Part shown: positions 6,887 to 11,427 of the stretch, one piece after another
Layout of the letters: each line of letters opens with the position of its first letter
How positions within the stretch are numbered: position 1 is the first letter of the stretch
Assembly: GCF_000011005.1 (NCBI RefSeq)
Contig: NC_013665.1
Coordinates: 1,837,501 to 1,901,500 of the forward strand
DNA: 64,000 nt
Reading direction: 5' to 3'
From: Methanocella paludicola SANAE
GTDB lineage: Archaea > Halobacteriota > Methanocellia > Methanocellales > Methanocellaceae
Position numbers and translations under genes: made by a program
Notes under the pieces: generated by a model
Databases searched by the model: none
What the model saw: the letters and a program-made list of their open reading frames with translations, nothing else
Told to the model about the DNA's origin: nothing

Positions 6887-8023
6887 TTACTTTTTATCCA
6901 TAAACTCCGAAGGCTTCTCGGCGCCTAGCTTCTTGAGGTCCTTCGTGGTCTTGGCGGTATCCTCAAGGTCCTTCTTGAGCTGGGACTCGATGCTTGCTAC
7001 CTCAGCCCTTAGCTCGTCGGGGTTGGGGATCTTGCCGAGCACGTCCTCGGGCTTGCCCACGAGACGCTCGACGTCCATCTCGGCACCAACCTCGGGGACC
7101 TTTTCTTCGGATGCGCCCAGGTACTTTGCGGACTGCTCGACGAGCTTCGAGATCTCGAACGGGAATATGATCTTCGTGGCCTGGCCGTTGGACATCTTCG
7201 AAAGCGTGTCCAGCGAAAGCACCGTGAGGGCCTTCTTATCCAGCGGCACTGCGCCCAGCGATATGAGCCGAAGCGACTGGGCCTGGCCCTGGGCCTGCAG
7301 GATGCTCGATACACGGGTACCTTCGGCTTCCAGGATCTTGGACTGCCTCGAGCCTTCTGCCTTTAAGATCATCGACTGCTTGGCACCTTCGGCCTCCAGG
7401 ATAGCGGAACGCTTGTTACCGTCGGCCAGAAGGATCGCGGCCCTCCTGCGCCTCTCGGCGGAGGTCTGCTCCTCCATGGCAGCCTTGACGGGCCCGACGG
7501 GGTCCACTTCACGGATCTCGACGGCCTCGACCCGCACGCCCCAGGCGTCCGTGGACTTGTCCAGGATGTCCCTCAGGCGGTTGTTGATGAGGTCACGGTT
7601 ATACAGCACTTCGTCGAGCTCCATGTCGCCGATGACGCTCCTTAAGGTCGTCTGAGCCAGCGCGATCGTCGCCATACGGTAATTGGTGACCTCGAAGTAT
7701 GCCTTTTCAGGGTCCACCACTTTAATGTATATAACGGCGTCCACGTTCGTGGGCGAGTTATCCTTGGTGATGACCTCCTGTTTCGGTATTTCCAGCACCT
7801 GCGTACGCAAGTCCAGCTTGATGACGTTGCTCACCAGGGGAATGACCCAGTTAAAGCCGGGGTTTAAACGGCCCCTGTACTGGCCCAGCAGGATCCACAG
7901 GCCCTGCTGGTAGGGCTGAATGATGCGGATGCCCGATACTAATATGAGGATGATGACGCCGATGAAGAACAGCACAACGACGCCAAATAGCACTTCTGCT
8001 CCGGTTAATGCTTGTAGTAACAT
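6887..8023 (-). CDS. SPFH/band-7 (stomatin-like) membrane protein
   Basis: A 378-aa SPFH protein that would form oligomeric rings or scaffolds in the membrane. An N-terminal transmembrane helix (about residues 8-32, EVLFGVVVLFFIGVIILILV) is followed by the band-7 domain with the hallmark QQGLWILLGQYRGRLNPGFN and LDLRTQVLEIPKQEVITKDN. A long Ala/Glu/Arg coiled coil follows (about 185-260) containing tandem ILEAEG repeats (ILEAEGAKQSMILKAEGSRQ). A charged Lys-rich tail ends the protein. The second in-frame ATG, at 8023, is used because aaggt lies 6 nt upstream; the ATG at 8029 has no spacing. The NfeD gene lies just upstream, and NfeD-stomatin pairs are a known conserved arrangement. It closes the Cas4-like/NfeD/SPFH cluster. 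Confidence 0.93.
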   Translation of the reverse strand: MLLQALTGAEVLFGVVVLFFIGVIILILVSGIRIIQPYQQGLWILLGQYRGRLNPGFNWVIPLVSNVIKLDLRTQVLEIPKQEVITKDNSPTNVDAVIYIKVVDPEKAYFEVTNYRMATIALAQTTLRSVIGDMELDEVLYNRDLINNRLRDILDKSTDAWGVRVEAVEIREVDPVGPVKAAMEEQTSAERRRRAAILLADGNKRSAILEAEGAKQSMILKAEGSRQSKILEAEGTRVSSILQAQGQAQSLRLISLGAVPLDKKALTVLSLDTLSKMSNGQATKIIFPFEISKLVEQSAKYLGASEEKVPEVGAEMDVERLVGKPEDVLGKIPNPDELRAEVASIESQLKKDLEDTAKTTKDLKKLGAEKPSEFMDKK

Positions 8024-8107
8024 GATCATACCTTCTTAACAATGCACTCCAATGCTTTACCTTCCTAACGATTATAGTTAAATCTAACGAATTGATATAT
8101 TTTTTTT

Positions 8108-8596
8108 CTATACCTTCTTAACGAACAAATGGACTCCAGATACTTTAACGACGCTTACCTTCTGGCAGGCATCGATGCACTCGTCAGACGTGGCGCTCCA
8201 GACCTGGGAATCGATCTTCACCTTGCCGTCGATGGAATCCGGCGAGACCTGCGTTATGACTTCCCCGACCCGGCCTACGAGCGAATCCATGCTGGTAGTG
8301 AATGGCTTCTGGACGGGAGCCAGACGCTTATAGAACGCTATCGTAAGAGCGCTGACGATAATTGTTAACACGACCAGCAGCGCGACACCGAGGGGAGACG
8401 TGACCAGCCCCGGGAACAGGATCATCAGCCCGCCCACGATCACCAGGATCGTCCCGGGCACGACCGCAAAATACCCTGGTAAAGCCAGCTCAACCAGCAG
8501 GAAGAGCACGCCTGCCACCAATAATATCCAGCCCAGTTCCATATTCATCAAGCTAATATTACGCTTTGTGGCCTCTTTATTGTTACGAGGGTTCAT
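8108..8596 (-). CDS. NfeD family membrane protein
   Basis: A 162-aa short-form NfeD protein. Transmembrane helices lie at about residues 18-38, 44-66 and 68-92 (LGWILLVAGVLFLLVELALP, VPGTILVIVGGLMILFPGLV, GVALLVVLTIIVSALTIAFY). An OB-fold C-terminal domain follows (LVGRVGEVITQVSPDSIDGKV to VSGVHLFVKKV). Short NfeD proteins partner stomatin/SPFH proteins and are thought to help assemble their oligomers; the serine protease half of long NfeD is absent. The start at 8596 overlaps the stop of the Cas4-like gene by 4 bp (ATGA). The SPFH gene follows 84 bp downstream. Confidence 0.9.
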   Translation of the reverse strand: MNPRNNKEATKRNISLMNMELGWILLVAGVLFLLVELALPGYFAVVPGTILVIVGGLMILFPGLVTSPLGVALLVVLTIIVSALTIAFYKRLAPVQKPFTTSMDSLVGRVGEVITQVSPDSIDGKVKIDSQVWSATSDECIDACQKVSVVKVSGVHLFVKKV

Positions 8597-9375
8597 TTGA
8601 ACAGGCTGCTCAGCAGCGACGGCTTTACGCTGCACGCGTCGGAGTGCCCGCATGCGCCGCACCATTTGCCCCGCTCCGCCTCGGGCATCCTGCCCCGGTC
8701 CATGTCCATTACCCTGTTTCGTGCATAGAGAGCCTTTCGTTTATCCTCGTATCTTATCTCTGCCCGCCTCAGACACCATCCGGGCACGTATTCGACGGCG
8801 CCTAAAGAGCAGAGAGCGTCGTACTTTTCTCCGAGGAGCATCGCATAAGCGGCGAGCCGTATCCGGTCCGATGCGTAAACCCCGTTTTTCGGGGGCTGTG
8901 ATGGGGAAATGATCACCGGAACGGGAGCACCCCCGGCCATAACTATCTTATCGACGGTGCCCGATATGCGGAGCTTTTCGGAATATAGCGTGGTGCCCGT
9001 TGTGCGAGGAAAGAGAATGCCCATGAGCGCTTCCTCTCCATGCTGGCCCTTTTCCTGTATTAGGCCTGTGACGATCTGCATCGCTATTTCCCGGGCCTCG
9101 GCCGCTGATCCCACAATAGTCTGCTCGTATGAGGGACCGTATATGAGGAGCGAGTCGTCACTTGCCCTCGTAATGGCATCGTCGAGGGCCAGTTCCGGCC
9201 TCGGGGATAACATGACTGAGCCCAGTGAGTGCGATAACGCTTTAAAAAAATCCGCTCTGACTGCAGCAACGGCCAGGGCATGTACCTGGCGCCGCTGAAA
9301 GTACACGAGCCTCGGGCACATATAATATGAAGAGATATCCGAGGCACGGACATACTTAATTTCGTTATGTTGCAT
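8593..9375 (-). CDS. Cas4/RecB-like PD-(D/E)XK superfamily protein with Fe-S cluster cysteines
   Basis: A 260-aa protein of the Cas4-like nuclease group. The N-terminal cysteine motif is YMCPRLVYFQRR (Cys about 19) and the C-terminal group is KWCGACGHSDAC, together the four cysteines expected for a 4Fe-4S cluster. The nuclease core shows the conserved Asp in ISGTVDKIVMAGG, but the following strand, where E-x-K is expected, reads PVIISPSQPPKNG, so the acidic and lysine residues are not evident. DRIRLAAYAMLL matches the motif after the active site. There is no CRISPR array or cas operon beside it. It is translationally coupled to NfeD. It could be a degenerate nuclease or a DNA/Fe-S binding protein. 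Confidence 0.75.
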   Translation of the reverse strand: MQHNEIKYVRASDISSYYMCPRLVYFQRRQVHALAVAAVRADFFKALSHSLGSVMLSPRPELALDDAITRASDDSLLIYGPSYEQTIVGSAAEAREIAMQIVTGLIQEKGQHGEEALMGILFPRTTGTTLYSEKLRISGTVDKIVMAGGAPVPVIISPSQPPKNGVYASDRIRLAAYAMLLGEKYDALCSLGAVEYVPGWCLRRAEIRYEDKRKALYARNRVMDMDRGRMPEAERGKWCGACGHSDACSVKPSLLSSLFK

Positions 9376-9432: not shown

Positions 9433-9567
9433 CTATCTACACATGATCATACAATTCTCGCAGCCCTCGCGCTCCTGGCAAAAGAGGTTCTCGTCAAAAT
9501 AGCACCAGCAGCCATAGTTGCCTTCCTGCTCAGCACGGGTCAGGGCCATATAATTGGACCGGTACAT
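9433..9567 (-). CDS. Candidate 44-aa peptide with six cysteines
   Basis: A short frame encoding MYRSNYMALTRAEQEGNYGC followed by a cysteine-dense tail. Cysteines are at residues 20, 22, 30, 36, 39 and 43, giving the pattern C-x-C-x7-C-x5-C-x2-C-x3-C. The first 19 residues are polar and lack Cys, like a leader, and the last 25 could be a modified core or a metal site. It lies 57 bp upstream of, and in the same direction as, the Cas4-like gene, and 288 bp from the divergent nifX-like/radical SAM pair. A convincing ribosome site is not visible. AT-rich TATA-like sequence (tttataat reading leftward) lies upstream. The gene call is from sequence reading only. Confidence 0.45.
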   Translation of the reverse strand: MYRSNYMALTRAEQEGNYGCWCYFDENLFCQEREGCENCMIMCR

Positions 9568-9746
9568 GCGGGATAAGCTTTTATCGACTATCTGGTACTT
9601 CCTCATCAAATTATAAAGACATTGAAATAGTGTTTATAAGTAATCGCCGATATGCACACGAAACGTGACCGGTAGTAGTGGAAAAATCGACCACCAGGTC
9701 CCGTGTTTAAGGTGTAATCGTTTACCAGGTATGCCTCGTGCAAATG

Positions 9747-9800
9747 AGTTGGTCGGTATCATGTACATCACTAAGGGCATTTAACCGCAAATTTTTTTAT
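9747..9800. repeat. Solo end remnant of R1 palindrome
   Basis: gttggtcggtatcatgtaca followed by tcactaagggcatttaac and a T run matches the left tip of the R1 family (compare 19690-19745) with scattered changes. No other arm is present. The rest of 9568-9855 holds no gene I can support. Confidence 0.65.
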
Positions 9801-9855
9801 AGAGCAGGCCCGGGACGGTCAACGTTAAGCTGCCACGCGTAGTTAATGTTAATGT

Positions 9856-10206
9856 ATGACCAGGTTCGCCGTGCCCGTCGTATCACCCGAAGGCCTTGGA
9901 TCGAAGATTAGCGAGCACTTCGCACGGAGCGAATATTTCGCGATCCTGGATGCGAAAGAGGGCAAGTTGGTTTCTGTTAAGGTCGTTCATTGTGTGCCCG
10001 ACGACGACAAGAAAAAGGCCGGGCTTCTCTCGGACAGGGGCGTAGAGGTCGTGCTCGCCGGCCGCATCGGCTCCTGCATGGTACGCGTTTTTATGGATAA
10101 GGGGATCCCGATGTTCAGCGGTGCCGAGGGCACGGTAAAACAAGCGTTTGAGGATTATATGGCAGGAAAGCTGGCCGAAGTAAAGCCCAACCCGTACCAG
10201 CTATGA
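9856..10206 (+). CDS. NifX/NifB C-terminal-like (dinitrogenase FeMo-cofactor family) protein
   Basis: A 116-aa single-domain protein of the NifB/NifX/VnfX fold (Nitro_FeMo-Co family). The family pattern is the N-terminal strand RFAVPVVSPEGLGSKISEHF, followed by a ligand-contact SEYFAILDAKEGK segment, and a central VEVVLAGRIGSCMVRVFMDK helix with one Cys (about 75). In nitrogenase systems these domains carry FeMo-cofactor or its precursors; free-standing archaeal members have unknown metallocluster roles. No nif genes are in the window. It lies 69 bp upstream of a SPASM radical SAM gene in the same direction, so a shared function in cluster or peptide handling is possible. Confidence 0.85.
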   Translation: MTRFAVPVVSPEGLGSKISEHFARSEYFAILDAKEGKLVSVKVVHCVPDDDKKKAGLLSDRGVEVVLAGRIGSCMVRVFMDKGIPMFSGAEGTVKQAFEDYMAGKLAEVKPNPYQL

Positions 10207-10275
10207 CGGGATGCGAAAACTTATTCGTCTTTAGCGGCATACGGTAATCGTTAAAGACCAATAGGGGCGTACCAA

Positions 10276-11427
10276 ATGCCTTTCCATGTGATGCTGATCC
10301 CGACCCTGGGCTGCCCGTCTAAATGCAGCTATTGCTGGAGCTCCGATCCGGACTCCCCGAAGATGAGCGTCGACACCATCAAAGAGGTGGTCGAGTGGCT
10401 GAAAGAGTTCCGGCCGGGCGAGGCGGTCACGTTCACCTTCCACGGCGGCGAGCCGCTCCTCGCCGGGGCCGATTTTTATAATAAATCGCTTGCATTGCTT
10501 TCGAAGAGCTTGAAGGACCGGAAGATCGCGTTCGCCATGCAGACCAACCTCTGGCTCATGACGCCCGAGATAGCGAAGGTCCTGGCGAAGTATAATATCC
10601 CGATCGGCTCCAGCCTGGACGGGCCCAAAGCGCTGAACGACATGCAGCGGTCGGAGGGCTACTACGACCGGACCATGAAGGGCTACAGGATCGCAAAAGA
10701 GAACGGCCTCGACGTTAAGTTCATCTGCACGTTCACATCCTATTCAGTAAAACAAAAAGAAAAAATATTCAACTATTTCCTGAAGAACGACCTGACCCTG
10801 AAGCTTCACCCTGCCCTGCCGTCTTTACGGAGTAACAAGCCCGGGGAATGGGCCCTCGACCCGGAAGAGTACGGCGAATTACTCGTATACCTCCTGGACA
10901 AGTACCTCGAGAACATGGGAAAGATCGAGGTCATGAACATCGACCACTTATGCAAGTGCATCTTCACCGGCCATGGTACCGTCTGCACGTATGTGGACTG
11001 CATGGGCGACACGTTCGCCATCGGCCCCGACGGCAGCATATACCCATGCTACCGCTACGTCGGCATGCCCACCTACGTTATGGGCAACGTCCACGACCAC
11101 CCTACGATGGAGGATCTGATGGGCTCGAAGGCGGGGAAGCTGATGCTGAGGTACAAGAAATACGTGGATAAGCACTGCAAGGACTGCACGCATATTAATT
11201 ATTGCCGCGGAGGCTGCCCCTATAATGCGATGGCGCCTTATGATGGCAAGATCAAGGGCGTCGACCCACACTGCATAGCCTATAAGCGTATCTTCGACGA
11301 GATCATCGACCGCATGAATAGCGACATGTTCGGCGGCTCGTCGAGCCTGGAGTCGGCCTCGTTCGGGTTCCCGCCCCAGCAGTCCTCGAAGCAGGGCATC
11401 ATGGCCATTATGCTCAAAGAGATATAA
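10276..11427 (+). CDS. Radical SAM/SPASM enzyme, probable peptide maturase
   Basis: A 383-aa radical SAM enzyme. The SAM-binding cluster motif is CPSKCSYC (Cys 13, 17, 20), preceded by MLIPTLG, followed by the GGEP motif in FTFHGGEPLLAG (about 56-60). The C-terminal SPASM region has many cysteines: CTYVDC, PCYRYVG, HCKDCTHINYCRGGCPYNA and DPHC, enough for two auxiliary Fe-S clusters. SPASM enzymes commonly modify ribosomal peptides or act as sulfatase-type maturases. From memory, one methanogen subgroup is associated with small Cys-rich peptides; I cannot confirm membership here. The NifX-like gene is directly upstream and a 44-aa six-cysteine frame is divergent at 9433-9567, giving a plausible enzyme-substrate pair. 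There is no sulfatase gene nearby. Confidence 0.9.
   Translation: MPFHVMLIPTLGCPSKCSYCWSSDPDSPKMSVDTIKEVVEWLKEFRPGEAVTFTFHGGEPLLAGADFYNKSLALLSKSLKDRKIAFAMQTNLWLMTPEIAKVLAKYNIPIGSSLDGPKALNDMQRSEGYYDRTMKGYRIAKENGLDVKFICTFTSYSVKQKEKIFNYFLKNDLTLKLHPALPSLRSNKPGEWALDPEEYGELLVYLLDKYLENMGKIEVMNIDHLCKCIFTGHGTVCTYVDCMGDTFAIGPDGSIYPCYRYVGMPTYVMGNVHDHPTMEDLMGSKAGKLMLRYKKYVDKHCKDCTHINYCRGGCPYNAMAPYDGKIKGVDPHCIAYKRIFDEIIDRMNSDMFGGSSSLESASFGFPPQQSSKQGIMAIMLKEI

Follow-up and report, generated by a model that had tools for sequence, protein, structure and literature searches.

An archaeal SPASM radical SAM enzyme whose recurrent genomic context points to a probable role in MCR maturation

The locus described here lies in a window of 64,000 nucleotides (the whole stretch of DNA that was analyzed), which is part of a single-contig archaeal genome of 2,957,635 bases. 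A gene for a SPASM radical SAM enzyme is preceded, 69 bp upstream and on the same strand, by a gene for a NifX-like protein. Across a divergent gap of about 250-290 bp, a short frame on the opposite strand encodes a 44-aa product with six cysteines, and this frame is located 57 bp upstream of a Cas4-like gene on its own strand (Table 1). An earlier, sequence-only reading had proposed that these parts form a new peptide-modification locus. Its inventory was accurate, in that the divergent 44-aa frame does carry six cysteines after a Cys-free segment and the NifX-like protein is indeed encoded next to a SPASM enzyme.

Table 1. Features of the locus, in window coordinates
Feature	Coordinates	Strand	Basis or details
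Cas4-like gene	8593..9375	minus	PF01930 above cut-off; TIGR00372 below cut-off
Six-Cys frame, ATG at 9567	9433..9567 (stop 9433-9435)	minus	44 aa, coding 9436-9567
Divergent intergenic region, six-Cys frame to NifX-like gene	9568..9855		sequence
NifX-like protein	9856..10206	plus	PF02579, 62.2 bits vs gathering cut-off 26.3, E 5.9e-17
SPASM radical SAM enzyme	10276..11427	plus	TIGR04083, PF04055, PF13186

The radical SAM enzyme is a full-length member of TIGR04083 (rSAM_pep_methan), scoring 715 bits (cut-off 300), with residues 4-381 aligned to profile positions 1-376. Specifically, it carries the radical SAM motif CxxxCxxC at residues 13-20 (C13, C17 and C20) and eight additional cysteines (237, 242, 258, 301, 304, 310, 314 and 333) that are predicted to be auxiliary-cluster ligands according to the assignment taken from PMC5682303. 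All 11 cluster cysteines are invariant in 109 relatives. As the sequence-only reading had noted from the motifs, this is a SPASM-type enzyme with two predicted auxiliary 4Fe-4S clusters.

The closest solved structure by sequence is anSMEcpe (4k36/4k37, E 8e-35), and an AlphaFold model of the enzyme (mean pLDDT 82.6) aligns with anSME along its full length (TM ~0.76). The eight auxiliary-cluster cysteine positions are shared with anSMEcpe (PDB 4k36-4k39), but the two proteins are 25% identical and the enzyme has YPCYR where anSME has YPCD. The residue at issue is Tyr259, which follows the third auxiliary-I cysteine and is invariant in 109 of 109 relatives, whereas anSME places there Asp277, its catalytic base. 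Because of this substitution, the enzyme is not a sulfatase maturase, and the chemistry of anSME is not transferable to TIGR04083. Its score against the anaerobic sulfatase maturase profile TIGR03942 is likewise below the cut-off (186 bits versus 349). Domain searches revealed no B12 domain in the enzyme, and B12-type methylation was rejected for this reason; with a SPASM region and two auxiliary clusters present instead, methylation is unlikely. A natural guess for its reaction would be the two-electron oxidation of a protein residue.

On the minus strand, the open frame of the putative peptide extends over 9433-9609, and translation from the ATG yields MYRSNYMALTRAEQEGNYGCWCYFDENLFCQEREGCENCMIMCR. 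A TTTATAAT box is located about 40 nt upstream of this ATG, within the divergent gap, which exhibits no unusual RNA fold (z -0.5). Cysteine richness alone is weak evidence for such a frame, since 5 of the 384 window frames of 30-70 aa have at least six cysteines. The frame represents more than chance, however, because it has homologues: a paralogue elsewhere in its own genome (G000:C1:915848-915958, E 4e-11), a homologue in a second genus (G001:C1:826931-827020, E 2.7e-6), and a diverged homologue in a third genus that was found with a three-member profile (G003:C9:38933-39001, E 3.8e-4). This small family thus comprises four copies in three Methanocellales genomes among the 393 of the phylum, plus one marginal match to a four-member profile, and searches of Pfam, NCBIfam, PDB, viral contigs and plasmids found no further homologues. 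The codon differences among the copies are in excess at third positions, which fits a coding sequence. Four cysteines, not six, are conserved across the family, in the pattern C-x7-C-x5-C-x2-C within GxWC...FCQxREGCxxC.I, with the G003 copy being one residue shorter.

SPASM enzymes frequently act on Cys-rich peptides, and NCBIfam calls TIGR04083 'peptide-modifying'. These facts, together with the six cysteines that follow a Cys-free start and a frame that has homologues and looks coding, would suit a two-gene RiPP system in which the enzyme modifies the adjacent peptide and the NifX-like protein delivers a metal cluster. We consider this arrangement highly improbable on the basis of the relatives of both genes. 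When 80 loci were oriented on the enzyme and all ORFs of at least 25 aa (5,912 in number) were compared all-against-all, only lineage-specific neighbors and shadow frames emerged as candidates for a conserved small ORF. No Cys-rich frame like the one in the window, or other conserved small frame, accompanies the homologous radical SAM genes in these 80 loci, an outcome that the sequence-only reading had itself named as refuting its proposal. The family name presumes a peptide substrate for which 80 members have no conserved gene, whereas mcrA and component A2 recur beside them.

Conversely, none of the other three copies of the small family has a SPASM gene beside it. These copies are unlinked to TIGR04083, and their neighbors are a TetR-type regulator with an IS256-like transposase close by, or a PadR-type regulator. 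The family is restricted to Methanocellales, but the enzyme also spans Methanosarcinales and Methanomicrobiales, and the pattern of four conserved cysteines is typical of a metal site. The frame is also outside the radical SAM transcription unit, since it is read from the opposite strand and from a divergent promoter, and it is more likely to be co-transcribed with the Cas4-like gene than with the radical SAM gene. The enzyme, for its part, lacks about 90 residues that the 450-aa RiPP maturases have at their N terminus. Matches to their profiles begin at profile positions 81-107, and the AlphaFold model begins directly with the radical SAM barrel. It scores 77 bits against the SCIFF maturase profile (cut-off 425), and differs from SCIFF-like and ranthipeptide-like RiPP systems both in having no N-terminal peptide-recognition extension and in having no adjacent conserved Cys-rich precursor. 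Judging from its conserved residues, the 44-aa product is probably an independent small metal-binding protein unrelated to the radical SAM gene, and it may hold a zinc site.

Other members of the minus-strand row that includes the six-Cys frame were also noted. The Cas4-like protein is a stand-alone protein with four Cas4-type cysteines and has no relative among the related loci searched. Downstream of its gene, at 6887-8665, reading of the translations identified a prohibitin/SPFH-type protein and an NfeD-like membrane protein.

The NifX-like protein is one of eight PF02579 proteins in its genome and is probably a metallocluster carrier; its PF02579 relatives in PDB include 1o13 and 1eo1. The C-terminal part of MrpORP resembles this protein. 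What distinguishes it from NifX, MTH1175 and the C-terminal region of MrpORP is that the PF02579 domain stands alone here and is encoded beside a SPASM gene. This pairing recurs, since a NifX-like gene is located directly upstream of the enzyme and on the same strand in a second Methanocella-family genome and in a genome from a different family (G304), and on the other side of the enzyme in G003. At the G304 locus, three consecutive PF02579 genes precede TIGR04083 directly (L063, 1-1400).

Almost all methane of biological origin is produced by MCR, several of whose unusual modified residues have, to our knowledge, no assigned enzyme. TIGR04083 loci were gathered from 134 of the 393 genomes of the phylum, plus named genomes. 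McrA was searched in the same 393 genomes, and the distance between the two genes was measured in the 104 genomes in which both could be placed. mcrA is found within 5 kb of TIGR04083 in at least 14 of these 104 genomes, and in at least 13 of them it lies upstream on the same strand (mcrBDCGA-rSAM), compared with a chance expectation for linkage of about 0.5% per genome. A Methanolobus-type genome (G060), with mcrA 0.5 kb upstream of TIGR04083, is an extra case beyond these 14. The linked genomes, which belong to Methanomicrobiales and Methanosarcinales, represent at least five genera. Ten 20-kb regions exhibit mcrB-C-G-A followed by TIGR04083 and often then by mtrE, and the mcr-TIGR04083 order is also present in the named genomes of Methanolobus vulcani and a member of Methanoregulaceae. 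The identities of the neighbors were confirmed by NCBIfam models for McrA (TIGR03256), component A2 (TIGR03269) and MtrE (TIGR01113).

A maximum-likelihood tree of 67 enzymes indicates that the linkage label changes 8 times, with at least 6 of these changes forced by well-supported branches. Thus, mcr linkage is not a single inherited operon that has been observed repeatedly. Given that the recurring neighbor of the enzyme is the mcr operon, the locus is better read as one for MCR maturation than for a new peptide natural product.

The distribution of the enzyme also follows that of McrA. McrA is present in 127 of the 133 genomes that carry TIGR04083 (Fisher p 1e-35, a value that ignores phylogeny), and the remaining 6 are mostly fragmented assemblies from families that normally have McrA. 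Both features that would be expected of an MCR-modifying enzyme, clustering of its gene with mcr genes and co-occurrence with McrA, are therefore observed for TIGR04083. Clustering has been used in this manner before, as an argument for YcaO and MgmA, whose genes are likewise grouped with the mcr operon in certain lineages. TIGR04083 differs from the known MCR-modifying enzymes MgmA, Mmp10 (a B12-type radical SAM enzyme), YcaO/TfuA and McmA, and has no B12-binding domain.

There is no mcrA linkage in most genomes, among the matches listed, and in the genome studied here the enzyme is encoded 1.34 Mb from mcrA. Since related SPASM families are peptide maturases, the enzyme might instead act on a small peptide or protein whose gene lies elsewhere, such that its place behind mcrA would reflect only a highly expressed, methanogen-specific operon. 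This seems unlikely to us, because the linkage is seen in distinct regions of the tree and independently includes component A2, and because the presence of the enzyme tracks that of McrA.

Component A2 provides this second, independent link to MCR. In G003, the enzyme is followed directly by genes for DUF134, NifX-like, Mrp and component A2 proteins, with mcrA on another contig, whereas in the genome studied here the DUF134-NifX-Mrp-A2 module is located behind mcrBDCGA (G000:C1:504344-513896). Elsewhere, component A2 is encoded 0.6 kb upstream of the enzyme at one locus, Mrp and component A2 about 1 kb upstream at another, and a component-A2-like protein, scoring below the curated cut-off, upstream of the enzyme at three loci of ANME-2 type. 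Component A2 belongs to the complex that activates MCR in an ATP-driven manner; this complex contains nitrogenase-type 8Fe-9S-C clusters and probably needs NifB (PMC12176620). Because of the links to the A2 module and the clusters of the activation complex, the NifX-like neighbor is plausibly involved in cluster supply around MCR. It would probably help to provide iron-sulfur clusters or metalloclusters within an MCR-activation module composed of DUF134, NifX-like, Mrp and component A2 proteins.

Within the genome studied here, the wider region (G000:C1:504344-519900; L217, 4345-19209) has, in order after mcrBDCGA, a cupin-like gene, a gene for a pyruvoyl-dependent arginine decarboxylase, and the DUF134, NifX-like, Mrp and component A2 genes. 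Three more PF02579 genes are present within 10 kb.

The same neighbors could indicate that the enzyme serves MCR through the activation machinery while leaving McrA untouched, either by modifying McrC, component A2, Mmp7 or Mmp17, or by maturing 8Fe-9S-C clusters together with the NifX-like and Mrp proteins. The probable need of the activation complex for NifB (PMC12176620) would be in keeping with such a role. We nevertheless regard it as a poor candidate, because the gene most often found directly beside it is mcrA, which closes the mcr operon, and because the fold is that of a protein-modifying SPASM enzyme. Furthermore, TIGR04083 is missing from 89 of 216 genomes with McrA, including one from the same family (G002), and activation should be universal. 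These absences imply that the enzyme is dispensable, as expected of a variable modification and not of activation itself.

We therefore favor, as the likely explanation, a role in MCR maturation for the anSME-like SPASM enzyme that the radical SAM gene encodes; its substrate is probably a residue of nascent McrA and not a small Cys-rich peptide. The SAM cluster of the enzyme would generate a 5′-deoxyadenosyl radical, which would abstract a hydrogen from either a backbone carbon or the beta carbon of the target residue. A candidate product is the didehydroaspartate next to thioglycine, which would correspond to Asp457 in the GYDLQDQC motif of McrA from the same genome. This is the most specific candidate because it is the only known McrA modification of such a type that has no known enzyme. 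Two variable McrA modifications lack an enzyme, didehydroaspartate and hydroxytryptophan (PMC7581889). An enzyme for didehydroaspartate was not known in 2020 (PMC7581889) or in 2021, and none is named in the 2025 literature consulted (PMC12413448). The MCR of M. acetivorans has didehydroaspartate and lacks hydroxytryptophan (PMC9081873, Table 1), and 6-hydroxytryptophan is disfavored as the product because this organism lacks that residue despite carrying the enzyme.

Didehydroaspartate has been reported in M. barkeri and M. marburgensis (PMC9081873) and in the MCRs of ANME-2c and ANME-2d (PMC12413448), whereas M. wolfeii and M. shengliensis are without it. We find TIGR04083 in M. acetivorans and in Methanosarcina, Methanoperedens and ANME-2 genomes. 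In this small comparison, the occurrence of the enzyme is consistent with that of the modification for M. acetivorans itself and, at the genus or group level only, for Methanosarcina, Methanoperedens and ANME-2. Should TIGR04083 be absent from M. marburgensis, a second didehydroaspartate enzyme would be needed. The genomes of group f8 were considered as stand-ins for Methermicoccus and rejected, since their McrA is closest in PDB to 7nkg yet they clearly represent a different organism.

An alignment of McrA from 40 enzyme-positive and 17 enzyme-negative genomes shows practically identical GYDLQDQC motifs in the two sets, and no McrA residue distinguishes one set from the other independently of phylogeny. 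A residue that predicts the enzyme, as one does for MgmA, was sought in this alignment and rejected, because the best positions (e.g. W/H at 445) track phylogeny. We tentatively suggest that TIGR04083 could be the missing enzyme that converts an aspartate in the active-site loop of McrA to didehydroaspartate. If this conjecture were correct, it would be a SPASM-type dehydrogenase with a housekeeping enzyme as its substrate, and in many lineages its gene would be the one that ends an extended mcr operon.

The TIGR04083 family is already known and named, but its likely client, MCR, would be new for a SPASM protein maturase. We found no report of an association between TIGR04083 and MCR in the literature within our scope, which excluded most subscription journals and preprints. 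A role in MCR maturation, if true, would correct a family name that points to peptide natural products. This role is directly testable, because an enzyme with a protein-dehydrogenase fold that follows mcrA in several lineages is also present in the genetically tractable Methanosarcina acetivorans.

One mcr-linked locus includes an additional feature. In the Methanolobus-type genome G060, a second, frameshifted copy of the 3′ end of mcrA lies directly 3′ of TIGR04083. This partial copy starts some 75 bp beyond the radical SAM gene (positions 1151-1635, oriented on that gene and counted from its start) and covers residues ~393-557, including GFDLQDQC. The location of TIGR04083 between an intact and a partial mcrA is likely a trace of gene insertion behind mcrA.
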